64,000 nt of DNA, from NCBI RefSeq assembly GCF_002959855.1, contig NZ_PPDB01000007.1, forward strand, positions 434,001-498,000. The letters are read 5' to 3'. Under the pieces are notes generated by a model, which was given only the letters and a program-made list of their open reading frames with translations, ran no database searches and was not told the DNA's origin. The stretch is from Veillonella denticariosi JCM 15641. GTDB lineage: Bacteria > Bacillota > Negativicutes > Veillonellales > Veillonellaceae. Position 1 is the first letter of the stretch; each line of letters starts with the position of its first letter. A program made the translations under genes and the position numbers. Shown here in pieces: positions 43,458-53,370 of the stretch.

Positions 43458-44417
43458 TTAACTACTTAAAATAGACAACAAAGTATATTGTTCTTCATTG
43501 ATTGGAAACTGCAATTTTTCCGCTTCCTTATAAGATATAGTACGAATATGACCATCAATATACCCGATTAAACGATTATCTACGCCGCTCATCAATGTAT
43601 TAATACATACCTCACTCATACGGGCGGCTAAAATCGCATCAAATGCGGAAGGTCCGCCACCACGTTGTAAATAACCTAGAACAGTCAAACTCGGGTCAAA
43701 TTCCGTATGATTTTTTATAAATTCTTTTACTTCGCCACTTTTGTAGGCACCTTCTGCCACAAGTATAACGCTATACTCCTTACCTCGCAATTGAGTTTCC
43801 TTCAAATGGCGGCAAACTTCATGAAGCGGCATCGGATTCTCAGGTACCAGAACGATTTCAGCGCCACATGCAATCCCGGACTGCAAAGCAATATGTCCGG
43901 CCTTGCGGCCCATTACTTCCACAATGGCTACCCGCTCATGAGAGTTCGATGTATCGCGGATATGCCCGACCGCATCAACAACAGTATTCAGTGCCGTATC
44001 AAATCCGATGGTATATTGCGTACCGCCCATATCATTATCAATAGTACAAGGAATTGTCATCGTTGACATACCGTGTCTTGATAAGCCCTGTGCACCGCGC
44101 ATGGAACCGTCACCACCTATGACGATCAGATGATCGATACCATGACGCTTCAATATTTGATAAGCGTTCTCTTGCAAAGATTCATCTTGAAACTCAGGAT
44201 ACCTTGCCGTTTTAAGCATTGTACCGCCCTGAGTGATAATTCCGCCAACATCGCGAGCCTGTAGAGGGAATATAGCCTCTTGTATAATGCCAAGATACCC
44301 CCGTTCAATGCCGAATACTTGAAAACCTTCATGGATTGCTTTTCTTGTAACGGCCCGAATGGCGGCGTTCATTCCCGGTGCGTCTCCACCGCTTGTTAAT
44401 ATTGCGATTTTTCTCAT
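43458..44417 (-). CDS. pfkA: 6-phosphofructokinase family protein
   Basis: A 319-residue PFK of standard bacterial length. The start ATG 44417 (MRKIAILTSGGDAPGMNAA) has GAGGGGG eight bases before it; an in-frame start 135 bases upstream would lie far inside the preceding gene. The catalytic TIDND (Asp near 127), GGDGS, RDTSNSHER and EVMGRKAGH motifs are present. The residue before TIDND, usually Gly in ATP-PFK and Lys in PPi-PFK (E. coli position 124), is Cys here (IPCTIDND), and the following IKGTD is MGGTQ. The first 89 bases overlap the kinase-like gene upstream. The reaction is probably fructose-6-phosphate phosphorylation, but the phosphoryl donor and control may differ. Confidence 0.92.
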   Translation of the reverse strand: MRKIAILTSGGDAPGMNAAIRAVTRKAIHEGFQVFGIERGYLGIIQEAIFPLQARDVGGIITQGGTMLKTARYPEFQDESLQENAYQILKRHGIDHLIVIGGDGSMRGAQGLSRHGMSTMTIPCTIDNDMGGTQYTIGFDTALNTVVDAVGHIRDTSNSHERVAIVEVMGRKAGHIALQSGIACGAEIVLVPENPMPLHEVCRHLKETQLRGKEYSVILVAEGAYKSGEVKEFIKNHTEFDPSLTVLGYLQRGGGPSAFDAILAARMSEVCINTLMSGVDNRLIGYIDGHIRTISYKEAEKLQFPINEEQYTLLSILSS

Positions 44418-45027
44418 ATCCATTACCCCCTCGTGGTATATCTTGTTTGGATATAGCATCTGATGGAATTGTATTATCTTTGGATCGACGCCTTGCTTTA
44501 AATTGTACCGCAGATGTTTCGAGCGCCTTTTCGATTCGCTGCATAAAATCAAAAGTTCGACCGTTTGTCGTATCTAATACATAGTCACACTGTTTATATA
44601 CAGGTTTCCAGGATTGTATCATGGTATGAACAAAAGAATTCACATTTGTATAATCCATCGTCGGTCGTTTACCGATACGGCGATTAACACGACTTACAAT
44701 ACGAAATTGTGCTGCGCGAATACCGATGATATAGGAATATTTTTTCAATATCTTTAACGTACGATGTTCTATCGGAAAGTTTCCGCCTACTGAAATAACA
44801 GCTTCATGGTATAAGCATACCTTTTTTAAAACATCCATTTCAGCACGGCGAAATGCTTTTTCTCCGATTTTTTTATAAATATCTGCAATGGGCAAGCCAA
44901 AACGATCTTCCAATACGCGATCGGTATCTACGAATTGCCAGCCTTTTCGTTCCGCCAGATTGCGACCGAAGTGACTTTTTCCACTTCCCATAGAACCGAT
45001 GAGCATAATATTTCGTTTAATTATCAT
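44329..45027 (-). CDS. Shikimate-kinase-like P-loop protein
   Basis: A 232-residue protein. The first 165 residues align with AroK: KRNIMLIGSMGSGKSHFGR (Walker A), DTD at the substrate-site Asp, FRRAE with the substrate-binding Arg (R58 equivalent), and the lid KRPTM. However the GGG of the substrate site reads GGN (ISVGGNFP), and the Arg of the C-terminal RNPLY motif (R136 equivalent) appears replaced by Trp (SWKPVY). A basic extension of about 60 residues (KARRRSKDN onward) follows, much of it encoded in the overlap with pfkA. It may be a diverged family member with another substrate. ATG 45027 has AAGGGG ten bases before it. Confidence 0.75.
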   Translation of the reverse strand: MIIKRNIMLIGSMGSGKSHFGRNLAERKGWQFVDTDRVLEDRFGLPIADIYKKIGEKAFRRAEMDVLKKVCLYHEAVISVGGNFPIEHRTLKILKKYSYIIGIRAAQFRIVSRVNRRIGKRPTMDYTNVNSFVHTMIQSWKPVYKQCDYVLDTTNGRTFDFMQRIEKALETSAVQFKARRRSKDNTIPSDAISKQDIPRGGNGYEKNRNINKRWRRTGNERRHSGRYKKSNP

Positions 45028-45060
45028 GTATAGTGAGCCCCTTATCATTTCATATCTTTC

Positions 45061-45088
45061 ATTTTACTATAATTCCATGTAAAAACAA
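45061..45088 (-). promoter_or_regulatory. Possible promoter of the aroK-like/pfkA pair
   Basis: Minus strand TTGTTT (45088-45083), 16-base spacer, TAAAAT (45066-45061), directly after the pilus-operon terminator. Confidence 0.4.
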
Positions 45089-45126
45089 AGATAGACCCTT
45101 TGGATATAACTCACCAGGGTCTATTT
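45082..45126 (-). terminator. Terminator of the pilus operon
   Basis: Minus strand ATAGACCCT pairs with AGGGTCTAT across a 16-base loop, followed by CTTTGTTTTT. It lies about 60 bases after the last pilus gene. Confidence 0.75.
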
Positions 45127-45181: not shown

Positions 45182-45682
45182 CTATTTATCGGACTTTATC
45201 ATACATTGCACATATACAACATTGCCCTTCCGCTCAATATCTGCTATTTCTATATGATGTTGAGATTCTGCTTTCTCGACTGAATTCAACCAATTAAATA
45301 GACTTTCCGTACTGCCCAGCAACGTTAATTCCAGCATCTTTTCATGTTCCACCGTACTCACAATCATTAAGGGTTCGCCTCGCAAAGATTCCAATATCTG
45401 TTCATAAGACGTATCTTCATATTGAAACCGCATCAATAACTCGGCCTCTTTAGAGGTTAAATAATCAGATTTAACCTGCATATTTATAGTATATAACTCC
45501 ATCTGCTCCGCTATGGAATATTGATGATTATAAAAATATACATATCCATATAGACAGACTCCGCTAAGGATTATCCAAAGCAGAAGCGCTCCCATGATTT
45601 TCTCCACCGGTAGCGTTGTGCTCGCCTTCAGATCCATCCATATGGAATGTATATTTTCCTTTATTCGCTTTAACTGTTCCAT
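45182..45682 (-). CDS. PilO/GspM-like pilus assembly protein
   Basis: A 166-residue bitopic membrane protein. A basic, amphipathic N-terminus (about 1-28) precedes one transmembrane helix (about 32-52), a coiled-coil-like stretch and a small alpha/beta domain (about 90-165) like the ferredoxin-like fold of PilO/GspM. Family identity is inferred from architecture and from its place after the PilN-like gene, since primary sequence is poorly conserved. Two starts compete: ATG 45682, which retains the GspM-like basic region but overlaps pilN by 119 bases, and ATG 45592, which has a strong GGAG six bases before it. Last gene of the operon. Confidence 0.7.
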   Translation of the reverse strand: MEQLKRIKENIHSIWMDLKASTTLPVEKIMGALLLWIILSGVCLYGYVYFYNHQYSIAEQMELYTINMQVKSDYLTSKEAELLMRFQYEDTSYEQILESLRGEPLMIVSTVEHEKMLELTLLGSTESLFNWLNSVEKAESQHHIEIADIERKGNVVYVQCMIKSDK

Positions 45683-46142
45683 GACACTCAATTTTCGTCA
45701 ATCGATGTTGAACATTATCCAAAAAAGCTCGACACCGTTCATCACTTATGCCCTCTCCATCAATGGATATATGCCCATTCTTATACGCAAGATGATTTAA
45801 ACTTATTTCTTGATTCATCGCCAGATCTAATATACAAATTATAACGGCATTATGTGAAAAACCTTTATCGCGTTGCAATATTTGATTACGCAAAGACATT
45901 ACCGTATCATACTTTTGCCGTACGTCCACATACTGTCTATTATTTTTCACATCACACCACTGACCTACCTGATTCCGATAAGACTGATATGAAGTGATAC
46001 ATAAATAGATCGATATACAGCCTAACAGGAAAAATACAACACTTAATATATACCCTAAATATCGATACCTATGCCAAAAACTGTGCCATTGCAAAGAACG
46101 GGGCATAAGATTGATTAATTCATTATTACCATCCCTGACCAA
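45564..46142 (-). CDS. PilN-like pilus assembly protein
   Basis: A 192-residue bitopic membrane protein. It begins with the cytoplasmic stretch NNELINLMPRSL, which resembles the INLLP motif of PilN that binds PilM. A transmembrane helix follows (about 28-50), then a coiled coil (about 55-90) and an alpha/beta domain (about 95-165), ending in a Gly/Glu/His-rich tail encoded in the overlap with the next gene. The likely start is TTG 46142, overlapping the PilM-like gene by 17 bases. Together with the PilM- and PilO-like neighbours it would form the inner-membrane alignment complex of the pilus. Confidence 0.75.
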   Translation of the reverse strand: MVRDGNNELINLMPRSLQWHSFWHRYRYLGYILSVVFFLLGCISIYLCITSYQSYRNQVGQWCDVKNNRQYVDVRQKYDTVMSLRNQILQRDKGFSHNAVIICILDLAMNQEISLNHLAYKNGHISIDGEGISDERCRAFLDNVQHRLTKIECHGTVKANKGKYTFHMDGSEGEHNATGGENHGSASALDNP

Positions 46143-46980
46143 TCCACTTTAACCCCCTTGCCGCCATGCCTATGGCCATATCCCAATCAAGACATCCGAT
46201 CTGGCATCGATTCCGGCCACGTCCTAACAATAGCAGAGGTATATATTCTATATCACCATACATATCTACAATAGAATTCAATTCACGCCATTTCTCCGTA
46301 GTAAGGTCTTCAGTTCCATAAAAATGAACTCCTTTAATTTCATCTATACCGAACTGCTGTAATTTCTCCTCGAGTCTTAAAATAGCCTCTTTTATATCTG
46401 ATTCCGTTATAGGAACGATAACGTCCTGTACAGATACATCCTTCCACCAAGCCCATAAATGCATACCTTCCGGCTCTACAATCCCGGTTATGATTCCACT
46501 GCGTTGCATATAACTGTAACATATCGGTATAGGCCACCCATCAATAACATCTACCGGCGCATACGTATCCCGTATCCCCTGCTTCAATAACTCCAAATCA
46601 TGCCGATCAACAGCCACCATGAACATGTAATAATTATGTCGTGGATATTCTCGACGACATGCATCCATTTGAAAGCAATCGCCATCAAAATCAAAATAGT
46701 CATCCACATTCCATTTAATAAATTCCTTCACATCAAAATCATGCGGATCATAAGCGGCCATATGCATTTGTGTCTTTATATCCGCAACAATACTATACTC
46801 TCCGTCATCTAAATCATAAGTTTCAATAAAATTTGCTACATCTTCATCAATGGAGCCGGTTCGTTTCATTTCAAGCGCATCGGTAATTACCATGGTTTTA
46901 TTTTCAATATGTGCCGTTACACCGACGATTCTCTCATCGGTTACACATAGTCCCGCATGGACCTTTTTCTTTTCTTTCAT
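46126..46980 (-). CDS. Divergent PilM-like protein
   Basis: A 284-residue soluble protein just before the PilN-like gene. The N-terminus (HAGLCVTDERIVGVTAHIENKTMVITDALEMKRTG) has the beta-strand layout of the actin-like PilM/GspL cytoplasmic domain. It is acidic and Trp-rich in the middle, and the usual ATP-binding motifs of PilM cannot be seen, so it may not bind nucleotide. Its identity rests mainly on order (pilM-pilN-pilO) and length. AGGAG lies before ATG 46980. A family-level search with structure prediction would decide. Confidence 0.6.
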   Translation of the reverse strand: MKEKKKVHAGLCVTDERIVGVTAHIENKTMVITDALEMKRTGSIDEDVANFIETYDLDDGEYSIVADIKTQMHMAAYDPHDFDVKEFIKWNVDDYFDFDGDCFQMDACRREYPRHNYYMFMVAVDRHDLELLKQGIRDTYAPVDVIDGWPIPICYSYMQRSGIITGIVEPEGMHLWAWWKDVSVQDVIVPITESDIKEAILRLEEKLQQFGIDEIKGVHFYGTEDLTTEKWRELNSIVDMYGDIEYIPLLLLGRGRNRCQIGCLDWDMAIGMAARGLKWIGQGW

Positions 46981-46989
46981 ATGTTCTCC

Positions 46990-47397
46990 TCAGTATGGTT
47001 TTATAGAAACTACATGCATATGATGATTTGTATCAACCGTAACATACATATGAATTCGACTGCTAATTTCATACGATTTTATCCTGCCGTAACTGATTAC
47101 ATGTCGTGGTATATCTTTACGCTTATCAGCCTCAATATAAATCGTGCAATCCTTATCATCAACAACCGATAACGGCTCATTAAAATCCCATCCATTCCCG
47201 GATTTACAATAGCCGACAAACCAGTGTGCTCCCCGTTCAGCTGCATAATGAGCCTCTTCAAGATGTAATTCATCCATTGTATTACTTTCACATATTTGAC
47301 CTATATGAAGCCCGGTAAAAGCCACCAGCAATAAAAAAGTCATCGATAATATAGCCACATATGTAATGAATCCCGCATTATAAGTCTCTGTGTTCAC
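46990..47397 (-). CDS. Minor pilin-like protein (ComGG/PilX-like)
   Basis: A 135-residue protein with an N-terminal hydrophobic helix after a Gly-Phe junction (ETYNAG then FITYVAILSMTFLLL), which looks like a prepilin cleavage site. Residue 5 after the cut is Val rather than Glu. The rest is a small domain with three Cys. I choose GTG 47397 (GAGGG five bases before; overlap of 20 bases with the previous gene); in-frame ATG codons at 47415-47418 are alternatives. Position after three other minor pilins suggests a tip or initiation role like ComGG or PilX. Family uncertain. Confidence 0.6.
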   Translation of the reverse strand: MNTETYNAGFITYVAILSMTFLLLVAFTGLHIGQICESNTMDELHLEEAHYAAERGAHWFVGYCKSGNGWDFNEPLSVVDDKDCTIYIEADKRKDIPRHVISYGRIKSYEISSRIHMYVTVDTNHHMHVVSIKPY

Positions 47398-47965
47398 TAT
47401 CGCCCTCGTTCTCATCATGTATATACCAATTAAATATCGTCCCTCGACCTGTAGCCACTTCATAACCGGCTATACCGCCATAGCCCTCGGTATATGATTT
47501 TTCTTTAGCAAACCGATTATTAATGAACCAATGTAAATGAACCACACCGTACTCATCCATCGCAAATCCTTTATCCCGCGTATGATCTAAATGTCTTTTA
47601 TCCGCAGTTCCGATAATGCGACTACCGCTGACAGGTTGTAAACTGCCGTCCGTTAGTTTACGATACAATGCATGTCGACGAATAACGAATGTAGTTCTTT
47701 TATTATCATGAATCATAAGGCTTTGATTGGCATCCTCAACCGTTACAGGAGCCTTATTCCACATTATATGGGCTACTACCATACGTCGTGTATAACGACC
47801 ATCCTCCATCATCGATACACTATCAAGCAGCTTGGCATCCCACATGACAGCATAGAATATGACGCTCAACAGAATCGACAATATAATTGTAGAGATGGTT
47901 ATACTGATAACAGTTGAGTATAAAATAAAGCCTGCTTGTTTATTTTTTTTTAAGACCCTTCTCAT
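47378..47965 (-). CDS. Minor pilin-like protein (PilW/ComGF-like)
   Basis: A 195-residue protein with a short basic leader (MRRVLKKNKQAG) and a prepilin-like hydrophobic helix starting FILYSTVIS. The residue at mature position 5 is Ser, not the usual Glu. The helix (about 13-40) is followed by a mostly beta domain with a C-terminal section rich in Gly and Tyr (YTEGYGGIAGYEV). Size and location recall PilW or GspJ/ComGF. The ribosome site is weak (AAGTATT). Confidence 0.65.
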   Translation of the reverse strand: MRRVLKKNKQAGFILYSTVISITISTIILSILLSVIFYAVMWDAKLLDSVSMMEDGRYTRRMVVAHIMWNKAPVTVEDANQSLMIHDNKRTTFVIRRHALYRKLTDGSLQPVSGSRIIGTADKRHLDHTRDKGFAMDEYGVVHLHWFINNRFAKEKSYTEGYGGIAGYEVATGRGTIFNWYIHDENEGDSEHRDL

Positions 47966-48042
47966 AATACTTACAATTCATATATGCATCCTTTCAAGAA
48001 TATAATTCATATCCATACAACTCATAGGTTATATACCTAGTT

Positions 48043-48471
48043 TCAATGTTCAATATCCGTACACAATGTATAAACAATGTGTCCGTTATCTAACGCCTGT
48101 ACGGTTATATGCTGCATAGGAACACCTTTTATATCAATAAGCGCAGCACCTTTTCTGTAAGTTATGTTCATCCCGTTACTGATAATAAACTGTGACGGAT
48201 AATCTCCGGCGGTAACATGTCCCGTTTTATAATATTCACACTTAGCCTCCTCCAAATATGTAAGAGTATCTTGCAAAATATGATCCCAATAGTAAGCCCG
48301 TTGAACAGAAAGACTTGCTAACCAGAACACGGACAATACGACGGGCAAAATAAATAGGATGATCATGGCTGATGCAAGTGCATCTCCATATAGAAAACCC
48401 GAATCAGTGAATTTCCTCCCACCGTATACGCCCCGTTTGTACAGATATCCAGATGCGATTTTTCTCACCAC
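48043..48471 (-). CDS. Minor pilin-like protein with Asp at position 5
   Basis: A 142-residue protein. The 25-residue leader (MVRKIASGYLYKR onward) ends in DSG, followed by FLYGDALASAMIILFIL, a prepilin-like junction with Asp in place of Glu5. A short soluble domain of about 90 residues follows. GTG 48471 has AAGGA at a suitable distance and lies inside the end of the GspH-like gene (68-base overlap). It likely corresponds to ComGE or PilV/GspI. Identification depends on the N-terminal pattern and operon position. Confidence 0.65.
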   Translation of the reverse strand: MVRKIASGYLYKRGVYGGRKFTDSGFLYGDALASAMIILFILPVVLSVFWLASLSVQRAYYWDHILQDTLTYLEEAKCEYYKTGHVTAGDYPSQFIISNGMNITYRKGAALIDIKGVPMQHITVQALDNGHIVYTLCTDIEH

Positions 48472-48865
48472 TTTCCTTATCTAATAAAACTATTTCCGTC
48501 TCATCATACGGTAAACCGAAAGCGGAAAAGGAAATCGTCGTTAAGGACCTCTGACTTTCAATTGACGTTGGTAACTGTATATCAACGGTATGATGATACA
48601 TATCTTCCGCAATGGTGTATTTATTCTTATGCAGTACAAATGTCATGTGACCCAAGCGATTGGACTTATGCCCCAGCATAGACCAAAACTGTACCTTTTT
48701 AATCATACATACGACCTCTTGTGTAGCTCCATTAAGAGTATAACGAGACGGCGTCGTCATCATAGGCATAGTTAGCGTGGCAATGAGTATTACTAAACCG
48801 ATGGTAATAACCCACTCCACAAGTAGAGCACCTACCCTTGGCCCTTTAAGCTGACGAGTATCCAT
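48404..48865 (-). CDS. GspH/FimT-like minor pilin (ComGD-like)
   Basis: A 153-residue prepilin. The 12-residue leader MDTRQLKGPRVG is followed by ALLVEWVITIGLVILIATL, with the conserved Glu at mature position 5. A TLNGATQEVVCMIKKVQFWSMLG helix-and-strand section and the C-terminal SFSAFGLP and GRIRW strands resemble GspH/FimT. In comG-type systems this protein is ComGD. GGAGG lies ten bases before ATG 48865, and the gene overlaps the peptidase gene by 34 bases. Confidence 0.8.
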   Translation of the reverse strand: MDTRQLKGPRVGALLVEWVITIGLVILIATLTMPMMTTPSRYTLNGATQEVVCMIKKVQFWSMLGHKSNRLGHMTFVLHKNKYTIAEDMYHHTVDIQLPTSIESQRSLTTISFSAFGLPYDETEIVLLDKESGEKNRIWISVQTGRIRWEEIH

Positions 48866-49386
48866 CTATACAATACCTCCATGTAACTCCCGCAGTGTAA
48901 TGCACACCATCCGCCAAAGCATAGAAAGGGACCAAACGGTATATATCGTTTCTTATAGCCGCTCAGTAAGAGATAGAGTGAACCTGAGCAAAACGCTATG
49001 TAGAAGAAACAGATTAATTCCCACGGCGTCAACCATGTAGCGATAGCACAAAACCACTTTACATCACCTAGGCCAAATCCCTTGTGACTGATATAGCGTA
49101 TAAGTAATGTAATGAGGCCAACTACACAAACACCTGTAAGAACGTTCACTAAACTATAATCATTTATATAGCTGTATATACATCCTCCTATGGCAAGAAT
49201 AACTGCACCTTCATCAGGCAGTATATAGTAATGCATATCGATGGTAGCACCTGCTAAGAGTATGAGTGAAAACACTGCATATAAAGCAACGTGAATATAA
49301 GATACTGCCTGTATACAAAACCATAGAGGGAGCACTATGGATGCTACATATATAACTAACGCGATAATATACTGTGTCCCTTTCAT
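48832..49386 (-). CDS. Prepilin peptidase, short form lacking the methylase domain
   Basis: A 184-residue polytopic membrane aspartyl protease of family A24. Both catalytic Asp motifs are present: ATIDMHYYILPDE (about residue 50) and GFGLGDVKW (about 105). Five to six hydrophobic helices are visible. The N-terminal cytoplasmic domain of full PilD, with its Cys pairs and N-methyltransferase function, is missing, so this enzyme probably cleaves but does not methylate, like ComC-short or TadV types. ATG 49386 has AGGA seven bases before it. It should process the pilin and minor pilins of this operon. Confidence 0.88.
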   Translation of the reverse strand: MKGTQYIIALVIYVASIVLPLWFCIQAVSYIHVALYAVFSLILLAGATIDMHYYILPDEGAVILAIGGCIYSYINDYSLVNVLTGVCVVGLITLLIRYISHKGFGLGDVKWFCAIATWLTPWELICFFYIAFCSGSLYLLLSGYKKRYIPFGPFLCFGGWCALHCGSYMEVLYRWILVSLKGQG

Positions 49387-49471
49387 AAGCCTATCCTTAT
49401 CAGACAAATACGAACTTACACATTATTGAAACTTAACAACATACAATCATCTTTACAATTTCAGCCATCCA

Positions 49472-49918
49472 TCATGGTGTATTTGGAGCGGTAACGACGA
49501 CAGATTTACCTGTATTACCGCTTACCTGTTCATAACTGATAGTATATTCCTTGCCTTTTGATGTTTTTACATGTTCCGTTAAATACCCTTCCTTATATAG
49601 ACTTTCAACAGTCGGCGGTGTCTCTATGTTCTTGTCGATCATATACAACTGAGTGGCATTTTTAATAATCTGAATATCAGCAGTTTCCTTAGCCGCTTTA
49701 GCTTTATCCGCCGCGCTCATAAACTGTGGCATCGCAATGGCCGCCAATATTGCAATAACAGCAACCACCACCATTAATTCCACCAAGGTGAAACCGCCTT
49801 CGCGCGATCTTTTAAGGTCCTGCTGAACATGACCTAACTTCAGATGACTCACAACCCATTGACTACAGCGATGTAATCTTTCATCAACCGTATTGACAAA
49901 CCGTAACATGTAATTCAT
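49472..49918 (-). CDS. Type IV major pilin (PilA/ComGC-like) with long leader
   Basis: A 148-residue prepilin. The canonical cleavage site GG then FTLVELMVVVAVIAILAAIAM has Glu at mature position 5. What is odd is the leader of 42 residues, with many charged residues and two His/Cys sites, instead of the usual 6-25. ATG 49918 has a strong AAGGAG site, and no later start codon has one, so the leader appears real. The mature 106-residue pilin has the alpha1-helix, DIQIIKNATQLYMIDKN and a short beta domain without a Cys pair. It is likely the main subunit of the pilus or pseudopilus. Confidence 0.92.
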   Translation of the reverse strand: MNYMLRFVNTVDERLHRCSQWVVSHLKLGHVQQDLKRSREGGFTLVELMVVVAVIAILAAIAMPQFMSAADKAKAAKETADIQIIKNATQLYMIDKNIETPPTVESLYKEGYLTEHVKTSKGKEYTISYEQVSGNTGKSVVVTAPNTP

Positions 49919-50014
49919 ACTATTCTCCTTTTCATTTCACACAAAACTTTTTTCTTTACGATAACAATTGTTACTCCTAATCAAAATAAACCTGCATAAA
50001 TAACGATATGTCGC
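49919..50014. other. Spacer between pilC and the pilin gene
   Basis: Contains the pilin ribosome site and a perfect 12-base palindrome TAACAATTGTTA (49962-49973). No U-tract follows, so not a terminator. It may hold a second promoter, but no clear -35/-10 pair is seen. Confidence 0.4.
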
Positions 50015-51190
50015 TCAATATCCGCTGAGAGATGAAATTGACGTAAACAACGGATACATAACAGATACGACGAGTACAGCTACACCAATCCCCATAACCG
50101 TTAACAGAATAGGCTCCAACAGTCTCTCCAAACGCCCTATATACTTTGCCAATATCAACTCGTAATAGCGACCGCAGTGATTCAACATCGTTACGAGCTC
50201 GCCGCTTTCCTCTCCGATAGATACCATTTGCCATATGAAAGTATTCCCTATATGTGCAGCTTCTAAACTTTCACATAAAGAGTGACCGCTTAACAGTTCT
50301 CTTTTCACGTATTCACTGCATTCACGACCATATAGATTAGGCCATAAAGGTTGGGTGATCTCTACAGTTTGAATAATAGAAAGCCCCGCCTCCAACAACA
50401 ATGCCCAAATCTTGAGCATACTCGTATAATACATACAGGTTAACCATTGATGACGATGAGCCAGTTGCCATAACCTACGATGTACTGCATGACGTATACG
50501 ATTTTGTTTATAGCCCCACAGGATACAGACGGCACCTAGGAAATGAATACCTATTGCCATTACCGGATGATCCTTTAACCCCTGTCCTAATGCAAATAGA
50601 GCTCTAGTCATCATCGGCAATTCAATATGCATGGTCTCAAACACCTTCTGAAAGGACGGAATGATAAACAATACGGTGACAAAGAAAAATAAATTCATCA
50701 GAACCAAGAGAAATGCCGGATATGAGATAGCGCTGATAATCTTTTGACGCAGTTGCCGCTCCCATTCATAATGATGTGAAATATACCGCAGACTCTCTCC
50801 TAACGTACCCGATGCCTCTCCGCTCTCAAGCAGAGCCAATGCGATAGGCGGACAACCTTCATTCCGAAACGCCTGAGACAAAGGTTGCCCTCGCTCAATT
50901 GATTCGTAAAGAGCCCTGTACACTAGTGCTCTACGACCATTACATAGCAAATGCAGAGCGCGTCTCAAAGGAACACCGGACTCTATCAGTAATCCCAACT
51001 GATAAGTTATATCGGCCACCACTTCATGACTCCATGATTGCACCTTTGATTTTTCTTTGCGGTTAATACGATAAATCCGGAATCCGTCACGTTTTAACCG
51101 AAGTGCTATTTCTCGTTCGGATTCACCCCACAATACACCTTTTACGGTTTCATCCGCATCATTTCTTACTACATATTCATATGCATCCAT
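50015..51190 (-). CDS. pilC: PilC/GspF inner-membrane platform protein
   Basis: A 391-residue polytopic protein with two GspF domains (about 60-180 and 265-385), each with hydrophobic helices. A typical LLIESGVPLRRAL, LALLESGEASGTLGESL and IGEESGELVTML pattern is repeated in the halves. The start is ATG 51190 (MDAYEYVVRN), preceded by AGGAG five bases earlier; upstream in-frame codons would lie inside pilT. PilC/ComGB anchors the ATPase and the growing pilus. The gene begins nine bases beyond the stop side of pilT, with a small overlap. Confidence 0.93.
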   Translation of the reverse strand: MDAYEYVVRNDADETVKGVLWGESEREIALRLKRDGFRIYRINRKEKSKVQSWSHEVVADITYQLGLLIESGVPLRRALHLLCNGRRALVYRALYESIERGQPLSQAFRNEGCPPIALALLESGEASGTLGESLRYISHHYEWERQLRQKIISAISYPAFLLVLMNLFFFVTVLFIIPSFQKVFETMHIELPMMTRALFALGQGLKDHPVMAIGIHFLGAVCILWGYKQNRIRHAVHRRLWQLAHRHQWLTCMYYTSMLKIWALLLEAGLSIIQTVEITQPLWPNLYGRECSEYVKRELLSGHSLCESLEAAHIGNTFIWQMVSIGEESGELVTMLNHCGRYYELILAKYIGRLERLLEPILLTVMGIGVAVLVVSVMYPLFTSISSLSGY

Positions 51191-51198
51191 GCTTACTC

Positions 51199-52218
51199 CT
51201 ATGACAATTGCTGATCGAGTAAAGAATGTAACTGCTGATATCCACCGTATTGAGCTTTTACATCGCGCACCGACATTTCCAACGTCTTCATGGGCATCTG
51301 TGTTTCCTGTATGGAAACAATTTGCGGCTCTTTTCGCGTCCGTATAAGATTGGCCACCGCATGCGTATTTAATAAAATATCTCGAATCGTAATGAACTGC
51401 TGGTTCCACCGTAATAACCGTTGACATATTACTGCACGTAACACTTGAGAGATTTGACTACGCACCTCTTCTTGTTGTTCACTTGGAAAAAGTGAAATCA
51501 TTCTATGTACAGCCATTACAGCCCGTTGTGTATGCATCGTAGCCATTACCAAGTGACCCGTTTCAGCAGCATGCAAAGCCGCCTCCAGGGTTTCCCGATC
51601 ACGCAGTTCGCCTACCATAATCACATCAGGATCTTCACGCAGCGCATCCCGTATTCCTGAGGACATAGAGATGATGTCACAACCCAATTGGCGTTGATGG
51701 ATAAGGGATTTCTGCGCAACAAACTCGAACTCGATTGGATCCTCCAGTGTAATAATGTGTTTTTCCATCGTTTGATTAATATAATCAATGCAACACGCTA
51801 AGGTATAACTTTTACCGCTACCCGTCGGGCCGCATACCAGAAGCAATCCGTCATGAGCGGCACATAAATTTTGCAATAACTTGCCTTCACCGGTATCATC
51901 CAATCCCAATTTATGATGGCATAAAAGTCGCAACGTGCCGCATATGATGTGATTGGCACGATATAAATGAACCCTGATTCGTACGCCGCAGCAGGAGCAT
52001 GCTTCGTCTAAAGACTGCCATTCGTCAGTTTCTATACCGCATCGCTGTAAGATATCCTCAATGAGTTCGGTTGTACAAATCGAATGTGTCGGCTTTAATC
52101 CGTCTCCACTTCGCAAATAAATCAACTGTCCACATTGTAAGTGAATATCTGTAGAAGATTTATCCAAAGCTTGCTGCACAATACCTTCAAGATCAACTAT
52201 CTCACAACAAAAGTCCAC
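51199..52218 (-). CDS. pilT: PilT-type pilus ATPase
   Basis: A 339-residue secretion ATPase of PilT length. Walker A GPTGSGKS (about 127-134), the Asp box TLEDPIEFEF, Walker B DPDVIMVGELRD and the His box GHLVMATMHT are all present. The C-terminal third has the PilT-like ILLNTHAVANLIRTRKEPQI and KTLEMSV pattern, supporting retraction rather than assembly. Start GTG 52218 with GGAGGAGG upstream; it overlaps pilB by 17 bases. The N-terminal domain is divergent (TDIHLQCGQLIYLRSG). Presence of PilT suggests twitching or active DNA uptake. Confidence 0.92.
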   Translation of the reverse strand: MDFCCEIVDLEGIVQQALDKSSTDIHLQCGQLIYLRSGDGLKPTHSICTTELIEDILQRCGIETDEWQSLDEACSCCGVRIRVHLYRANHIICGTLRLLCHHKLGLDDTGEGKLLQNLCAAHDGLLLVCGPTGSGKSYTLACCIDYINQTMEKHIITLEDPIEFEFVAQKSLIHQRQLGCDIISMSSGIRDALREDPDVIMVGELRDRETLEAALHAAETGHLVMATMHTQRAVMAVHRMISLFPSEQQEEVRSQISQVLRAVICQRLLRWNQQFITIRDILLNTHAVANLIRTRKEPQIVSIQETQMPMKTLEMSVRDVKAQYGGYQQLHSLLDQQLS

Positions 52219-53212
52219 AACGATGCACCTCCTCCAAAGATGTTATATGTCTCTGCACTGCATCATTTGCGGAGTCCTCAAGAGATAATAATAGATGAGA
52301 CGCCAGATTATCCCAATCAGCCTCATTAAGAGGTATCTCCAAATACTCAAATAAAGCAGTTCTATCATGATATACAGTTCCATCAAAACGTCTGACTAAA
52401 CGCTGTGCGACGGCACCTATTAAAGTAGCCCGAATCAAATAGGGCTCCACGCCCATATCCATAAGCCGTGTGACAACGCCCATAGCAGTATTGGTGTGAA
52501 TTGTAGAGAGCACACGATGTCCTGTCAAAGCCGATTTAACGGCTAATTCGGCAGTCTCCCGATCTCGAATTTCTCCAATCATAATCGTATCCGGATCCTG
52601 ACGCAGTACTGAGCGCAGCCCTTTGGCAAAAGTAAAACCGATTTTCTCATTAATACCGATTTGAATGGCACCTTTAATTTCCGCCTCAACCGGATCTTCC
52701 AGACAGATGAGCTTCGTTTCACGTAAATTAAGCATTCGCAACATAGAATATAATGTGGCTGTTTTACCACTGCCCGTAGGACCGCAAATTAACATGAGCC
52801 CATACGGTCTTTGCAGTAATTTTTTTATATGTTCAAAAATATGCTGCGGCATACCTAACGCTTCAAGACTTTTATGGCTCCCTTCATTTCCCATAAGACG
52901 ACACACTACAGTTTCACCATACAGACTGGGGAGTGTGGAAACGCGCATCGTTACAGATTCATTGCGATGCTTCCATACCCACCGTCCATCTTGAGGTAAT
53001 CGCTTCTCACTGATATCAAGAGCGCTACATACCTTAATTCGATTTAATACGAGATCCGCCTCCTCATCAGGCAGTGTCATATGCGTCTGTAATAAACCAT
53101 CTTGACGAAACCTGACATACACACCTTCTTCCATCGGATCAAAATGAATATCGCTCACATTATGTTGCAAAGCACATAGAATAATATCATCCAACGTTAC
53201 ATCTACATACAT
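52202..53212 (-). CDS. pilB: PilB/GspE/ComGA-type assembly ATPase, short form
   Basis: A 336-residue ATPase driving pilus extension. It starts directly with the second N-terminal domain (NVSDIHFDPMEEGVYVRFR), so the MshEN-like N1 domain of full PilB (about 550 residues) is absent, as in Bacillus ComGA. Walker A GPTGSGKT, Asp box CLEDPVE, Walker B DPDTIMIGEIRD and His box GHRVLSTIHT are intact. The Cys4 zinc motif usually following QRLVRR is lacking (RRFDGTVYHD). ATG 53212 has GGAGG five bases before it. First gene of the pilus operon. Confidence 0.92.
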   Translation of the reverse strand: MYVDVTLDDIILCALQHNVSDIHFDPMEEGVYVRFRQDGLLQTHMTLPDEEADLVLNRIKVCSALDISEKRLPQDGRWVWKHRNESVTMRVSTLPSLYGETVVCRLMGNEGSHKSLEALGMPQHIFEHIKKLLQRPYGLMLICGPTGSGKTATLYSMLRMLNLRETKLICLEDPVEAEIKGAIQIGINEKIGFTFAKGLRSVLRQDPDTIMIGEIRDRETAELAVKSALTGHRVLSTIHTNTAMGVVTRLMDMGVEPYLIRATLIGAVAQRLVRRFDGTVYHDRTALFEYLEIPLNEADWDNLASHLLLSLEDSANDAVQRHITSLEEVHRCGLLL

Positions 53213-53265
53213 GGTCACCTCCTAAACCTTGCGGTATGTTTTTACCTCACCCTAACGTATGGCGT

Positions 53266-53346: not shown

Positions 53347-53370
53347 TAAAAAAGCGCCCCGAAGGGCGCT
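53347..53370 (-). terminator. Terminator after eno
   Basis: Minus strand AGCGCCC-TTCG-GGGCGCT, a stable tetraloop stem, followed by TTTTTATTT. It closes the glycolytic operon about 80 bases after the eno stop. Confidence 0.93.

Follow-up and report, generated by a model that had tools for sequence, protein, structure and literature searches.

The closest described relative of the locus reported here is the 12-gene "competence gene locus" of Veillonella parvula (VPAR_RS05490-5435), which Knapp et al. 2017 (PMC5397411) described as homologous to type II secretion systems (T2SS) and reported as syntenic in seven species. According to that paper, deletion of the locus in strain SKV38 left no detectable transformants, a reduction of at least 3 logs. 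Antunes et al. 2016 (PMC5007114) reported a conserved pilus locus together with PilQ in Negativicutes and Halanaerobiales, both diderm Firmicutes. We analysed a 64,000-nucleotide stretch (G000:C6:434001-498000, hereafter the window) of a 1.98 Mb genome, in which 12 type IV pilus genes form a single minus-strand run (45182-53218; Table 1), and we are confident that this operon encodes the competence type IVa pilus (T4aP) of a Veillonella. As in the V. parvula locus (PMC5397411), two traffic ATPases come first, the second of them PilT-like, and are accompanied by a platform protein, a prepilin peptidase and pilin-like genes; the SKV38 chromosome itself (L037) carries all 12 genes. Because of these two studies, the former with its deletion and the latter with its pilus locus and secretin, the gene content and function of the operon are to be regarded as known, and DNA uptake, as proposed for it in a preliminary description of the window, had already been demonstrated for this locus in V. 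parvula SKV38 (PMC5397411). The main text of that paper uses neither the names pilM, pilN, pilO, pilQ and comEA nor the word prophage, and it is a pilin-targeting prophage of relatives, described below, that we consider the part worth pursuing.

All genes named in the preliminary description were present in place, strand and order, namely pilB-pilT-pilC-pilA-pilD, four minor pilins and pilM-pilN-pilO; its total of eleven was a miscount, as its own list also holds 12. Its statement that the genes overlap holds for some neighbours (by 17–128 nt), while others are 8–96 nt apart. The assignment to a diderm Firmicute was borne out, since the six named relatives are all Veillonella (PilM 63–74% identical), a genus that possesses an outer membrane according to the published accounts consulted; the source genome is accordingly taken to belong to Veillonella or to lie very close to it. 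Loci were fetched from 24 of the 27 other genomes of the family, and 23 of the 24 have the complete set of 12 genes arranged as in the window, so that the arrangement is not due to chance; the 24th operon is split by a prophage. Veillonella rogosae, for which the partial data of PMC5397411 showed no locus, carries the full set in strain JCM 15642 (L039:3789-11823). At the level of the order, 32 genomes were searched and 16 loci fetched. In families f4 (six loci) and f3 (four loci), pilB-T-C-A-D and several minor pilins are retained, and the PilM profile had no match at these loci. At the six loci of family f2 (L075, L078, L081, L084, L087 and L089), pilB and pilT, joined in five of the six by pilC, stand together alone; L075 covers 5 kb at the end of a contig.

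Five components expected of a T4aP were identified by clear family matches: separate extension (PilB) and retraction (PilT) ATPases, the PilC platform, PilA with a prepilin leader, and the PilD peptidase. PilB is of ComGA length and lacks the front domain of PilB/GspE, aligning to positions 115–384 of 486 in the GspE profile and 186–455 of 564 in the PilB profile. PilT matched TIGR01420 (E 2.6e-90) with 303.1 bits, under the curated cut-off of 319.1, and was present in 58 of 60 genomes, a set that here and below includes our own. For PilC, a start near 51190 (391 aa, rather than 470) is more likely. A bifunctional PilD with an A24_N domain is usual for T4aP, though perhaps not essential; the peptidase here has the A24 domain without A24_N, which scored above cut-off in none of the 60 genomes (sub-threshold in two order-level genomes) using a model that scores in 8 of 14 controls. 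This peptidase, the short PilB and a PilM without a recognisable conserved ATP-site motif agree with the "reduced parts" noted previously.

Probable partners of the pilus lie elsewhere in the genome. The preliminary description had supposed a secretin encoded elsewhere or none, and had suggested searching the genome for it and for comEA and comEC; all three were found, so the first of its two options applies. The single secretin (C6:65440, 425 aa; E 3.3e-43) lies together with a pilP-like gene ∼420 kb from the operon, and comEA and comEC are adjacent at C6:354-357 kb. A secretin was detected in 59 of the 60 genomes, and a small PilP-like gene, for which Pfam gave no match, stands directly upstream of it in all 18 loci fetched from those 59. 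No pilus operon was found within the roughly 11–12 kb fetched around these 18 secretins, a separate pilP-like/secretin pair that differs from the locus with PilQ as outlined in PMC5007114. Four of the secretin loci contained a lone match to the PilB profile, taken for other ATPases. In genome G034 the secretin is in two pieces in different frames (L100:4663-5983), so that either the gene is disrupted or the sequence contains an error.

Since matches of single proteins were at chance level for PilM (Melibiase_2, 0.011), PilN (0.091) and two of the four minor pilins, profiles built over 24–30 relatives were used. A 30-member PilM profile (the window, 23 same-family loci and six proteins of a second family within the order, added by position) gave two matches below E 0.01 in the PDB, both of them PilM (3jc8, 1.9e-7; 2ych, 7.2e-4). 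Because six members had been added by position rather than by profile match, the search was repeated with the 24 family members, and PilM again ranked first and second (1.5e-5 and 0.012). A profile built from 7 sequences had no PDB match with E up to 10, and Pfam runs on each of the 30 members gave no PilM match. The predicted PilM structure offers mild support, as most of the structures it matched are known actin-like ATPases, PilM among them, with query TM-scores of 0.12–0.24 among the 50 matches listed. In PilM proteins, the ATP site is characterised by D-[hydrophobic]-G motifs. The form D-[hydrophobic]-G-x-x-[TS] occurred in none of the 30 proteins at the PilM position, either in the first 45 residues or in a scan then extended to the whole proteins; any D-[hydrophobic]-G was found in 8 of 30, at four positions spread along the protein (near residues 50, 120, 212 and 252), and D-x-G-x-x-S with an acidic x near residue 60 in 8 of 30, the window's included. 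By this motif rule, applied without a positive control, the ATP site of PilM has likely been lost; if so, the lineage would offer a natural test of the need for nucleotide binding by PilM.

For PilN, the usual motif is INLLP, and N-[LF]-MPRSL was present near the start of all seven aligned Veillonella sequences; of 29 sequences across the order, 14 have the more permissive N-[LFI]-x-P. Pfam PilN (PF05137) was matched by 10 of the 29 members at E up to 0.1 (best 3.2e-5), and the first PDB match of the profile was PilN (0.0017), above many chance matches to membrane proteins. The PilN model (pLDDT 75) matched domains of PulM, XcpY, PilO and EpsM (target TM-scores 0.41–0.75, best E 6.7e-4), which were mixed in the Foldseek list with designed and unrelated proteins. 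PilO had weak T2SSM matches from one member each, and its best PDB matches were chance membrane proteins, with T2SS protein M at E 0.59. The PilM-, PilN- and PilO-like genes claimed in the preliminary description thus fared differently: profiles for both PilM and PilN, and the fold comparison for PilN, support these two identities, and PilO is named mainly by its position together with the weak matches. In one order-level family, an ORF of 437–470 codons that matches PilN also covers the pilM position in all four fetched loci (Table 1); a GspL-like PilM-PilN fusion is possible, in which the front half would be PilM-like.

Read as a competence pilus, the operon would work as follows. PilB would polymerise PilA on the PilC platform after cleavage of the prepilins by PilD, with a priming tip made of the four minor pilins. 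PilM, PilN and PilO, together with the PilP-like protein encoded elsewhere, may join the platform to the short outer-membrane secretin (PilQ), on the assumption that this secretin serves this pilus. Retraction of the fibre by PilT would draw DNA into the periplasm, where ComEA would bind it and ComEC pass a single strand inwards. Such a machine would explain DNA uptake by an abundant anaerobe of mouth and gut with an outer membrane, as already published.

Several observations count against this account. Single-protein Pfam and NCBIfam searches returned no significant match for PilM, PilN, PilO or the four minor pilins; these were identified by position, leader peptides, broader profiles and a single comparison of folds. 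The PilM model is of low quality (pLDDT 51), and a published V. parvula proteome contained only a few peptides of PilM and PilA under the growth conditions used. Our results, moreover, do not separate DNA uptake from twitching or adhesion. That the pilus serves mainly for twitching, adhesion or biofilm formation, with DNA uptake as a by-product, is nevertheless unlikely. It would account for the presence of PilT, whereas the comG competence pili of monoderms have, to our knowledge, no dedicated PilT, and no PilM/N/O or secretin either. Against it stand the loss of detectable transformation upon deletion of the SKV38 locus (PMC5397411), the presence of comEA-comEC, and a prophage in the pilin gene like the comYC phages of streptococci. 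Possession of PilT, PilM/N/O and a secretin also sets the operon apart from a monoderm-type comG operon that gained pilT and pilMNO, an origin we consider improbable even though PilB is ComGA-length and covered residues 2–266 of the 267 in the ComGA model: its score of 274.8 bits missed that model's cut-off of 300, and six secretin-bearing type IV filament systems of diderm Firmicutes, of which four group with Firmicutes and two with diderms, are given in the published listing consulted as T4aP, Tad and T2SS, with none as comG.

A T2SS is less probable still. In its favour, PilB has the GspE model as its top NCBIfam match, the predicted PilN structure resembles domains of PulM and XcpY, the minor pilins follow an H-I-J-K-like pattern as in T2SS, and the pilN ORF that spans the pilM position in four loci of the order-level family resembles GspL. 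T2SS have a single ATPase and no PilT, as a published account consulted also states, and here a second ATPase of PilT type is present; the PilM profile, moreover, finds PilM and not GspL in the PDB. The secretin does not decide between T4aP and T2SS because it matches both GspD and PilQ, GspD first.

The exceptional 24th locus belongs to G009, the genome with the most similar PilT (98%). An integrase and phage genes directly follow a truncated pilA, of which the 5' part lies ∼41 kb from the 3' part and from pilD onwards. Of the 148 residues of the pilin, the truncated form retains 94, to which phage sequence adds 17, and the genes downstream of the prophage stay open. Both prophage ends share a 6-bp core, TATGAT, corresponding to the site marked in the pilA of the window (Table 1). 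The integrase, a repressor, and Erf-like, HNH and tail-type proteins match phage families, and two more proteins match families of unknown function. A second provirus, IMG/VR UViG_2882406111, encodes an integrase 92% identical to that of G009 and has the same host-phage junction (L130:1552-1560) in a pilA of different sequence, its pilA-pilD stretch being 69% identical to the window. One junction is visible in this record because its other side ends with the integrase gene, so that insertion within the pilin gene with the shared core was seen at both ends in G009 and at one end in the second provirus. Searching IMG/VR for more proviruses with pilD returned UViG_2882406111 again and nothing further. 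An 18-base junction pattern matched three records in all, two of which (L135 and L137) were dropped because the match falls within unrelated phage genes.

Among 14 Veillonella pilA genes, those of the window and of G009 included, the core reads TATGAT in ten, CATGAT in three and TTTGCT in one, and one of the 14 is occupied. Above 44% identity, the integrase was found in G009 alone among 28 family genomes; its best-ranked phage record is 30.6% identical, and all 672 matching phage records fall below 60%. No record of the phage collection matched the window's pilA at E up to 5. A search of paper listings showed no report of a prophage in Veillonella pilA.

Croucher et al. 2016 (PMC4774983) described the blocking of transformation by prophages in comYC, comFA and comK and by elements in comM, with cases in streptococci, Lactococcus, Listeria and Bacillus and, for comM, in Gram-negatives. 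As with the comYC prophages of streptococci and Lactococcus in that account, the gene of the major competence pilin is split at a preferred site; unlike them, the host here is a diderm with a T4aP-type pilus. The pilA prophage fits this transformation-blocking pattern. As an alternative, phages that use the pilus as a receptor may gain by removing it from the lysogen, and two cases do not separate these explanations. The core, at 6 bp, is short. We tentatively put forward, as a possibility that we rate somewhat short of probable, a combined picture in which pilA, the major pilin gene of the Veillonella competence pilus, would be the specific attachment site of a temperate phage lineage. Lysogeny would split the operon, stop DNA uptake and shield the prophage from removal by transformation, with precise excision proposed to restore uptake, and the pilus of the order would run on a PilM that does not bind ATP and on prepilins cleaved without N-methylation. 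If true, the comYC and comK prophages would have a counterpart among diderm Firmicutes in the pilA prophage, which would support the repeated evolution of phages that block transformation and might explain why some strains do not transform.

Table 1. Features of the pilus operon (window positions) and of related loci.
Feature	Position	Strand	Basis
pilB, extension ATPase, 338 aa	52202..53218	-	GspE, PilB and ComGA profiles
pilT, predicted retraction ATPase, 339 aa	51199..52218	-	TIGR01420
pilC, platform protein, 391 aa	50015..51190	-	T2SSF 2.7e-38; start moved from 51427
pilA, major pilin, leader G^FTLVE	49472..49918	-	N_methyl 7.2e-9
TATGAT in pilA (gene strand), prophage attachment core in relatives; unoccupied here	49638..49643	-	
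pilD, short prepilin peptidase, A24 domain alone	48832..49407	-	Peptidase_A24 3.5e-12
Minor pilin 1 (GspH position), leader G^ALLVE	48404..48865	-	no Pfam/NCBIfam match
Minor pilin 2, leader G^FLYGD (Asp at +5)	48043..48471	-	no family match
Minor pilin 3, leader G^FILYS (Ser at +5)	47378..47965	-	family matches at chance level
Minor pilin 4 (GspK position), leader G^FITYV, without Glu at +5	46990..47463	-	family match at chance level
pilM, 284 aa, PilM homologue without recognisable conserved ATP-site motif	46126..46980	-	profile against PDB
pilN, NLMPRSL near N-terminus, one predicted membrane helix, ferredoxin-like C-terminal domain	45564..46142	-	
pilO-like, 169 aa	45182..45691	-	position; weak T2SSM matches
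Intrinsic-terminator-like hairpin 3' of pilO	45081..45124	-	
Terminator-like site between upstream enolase gene and pilB	53353..53370	-	
Prophage in G009 pilA, ~41 kb	G009:C1 about 1192392-1233440; L059:1-7420, L129:8393-16001		
Long PilN ORFs	L076:3672-5024, L079:2712-4061, L082:7814-9223, L085:7843-9156		

In each of the five pilin-like proteins of the window, a hydrophobic stretch comes after a candidate cleavage site, which a script picked as the site with the most hydrophobic sequence behind it. At +5, PilA and minor pilin 1 have Glu, and minor pilins 2, 3 and 4 have Asp, Ser and Val, respectively. Conservation of the site in minor pilin 1 is not claimed because the script chose a wrong site in many relatives. 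In minor pilin 3, the +5 residue is Ser in Veillonella (Gln in L051) and Glu in 11 loci from other genera of the family. With the ATG at 49918 as its start, PilA would have a predicted leader of 42 residues (49793-49918), which is longer than is usual for a prepilin.

The terminator proposed at the end of the operon was corroborated by folding. The 54 nt after pilO (45132-45079) have a folding energy of -18.5 kcal/mol (z -3.98), equalled by none of 200 shuffles, and a T-rich run adjoins the 3' side of the hairpin, which was absent from the output of a consensus terminator scanner with a loop limit of 8. That scan reported 6 sites overall against 5.3 expected, and weight was therefore given to individual structures alone. 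The run of 12 genes is flanked by an enolase gene, recognised by eye, before pilB and by a shikimate kinase gene after pilO; the latter is followed by a pfkA-like gene, also recognised by eye, and this order of the two (43458-45048) is repeated in L088, a locus of another family.

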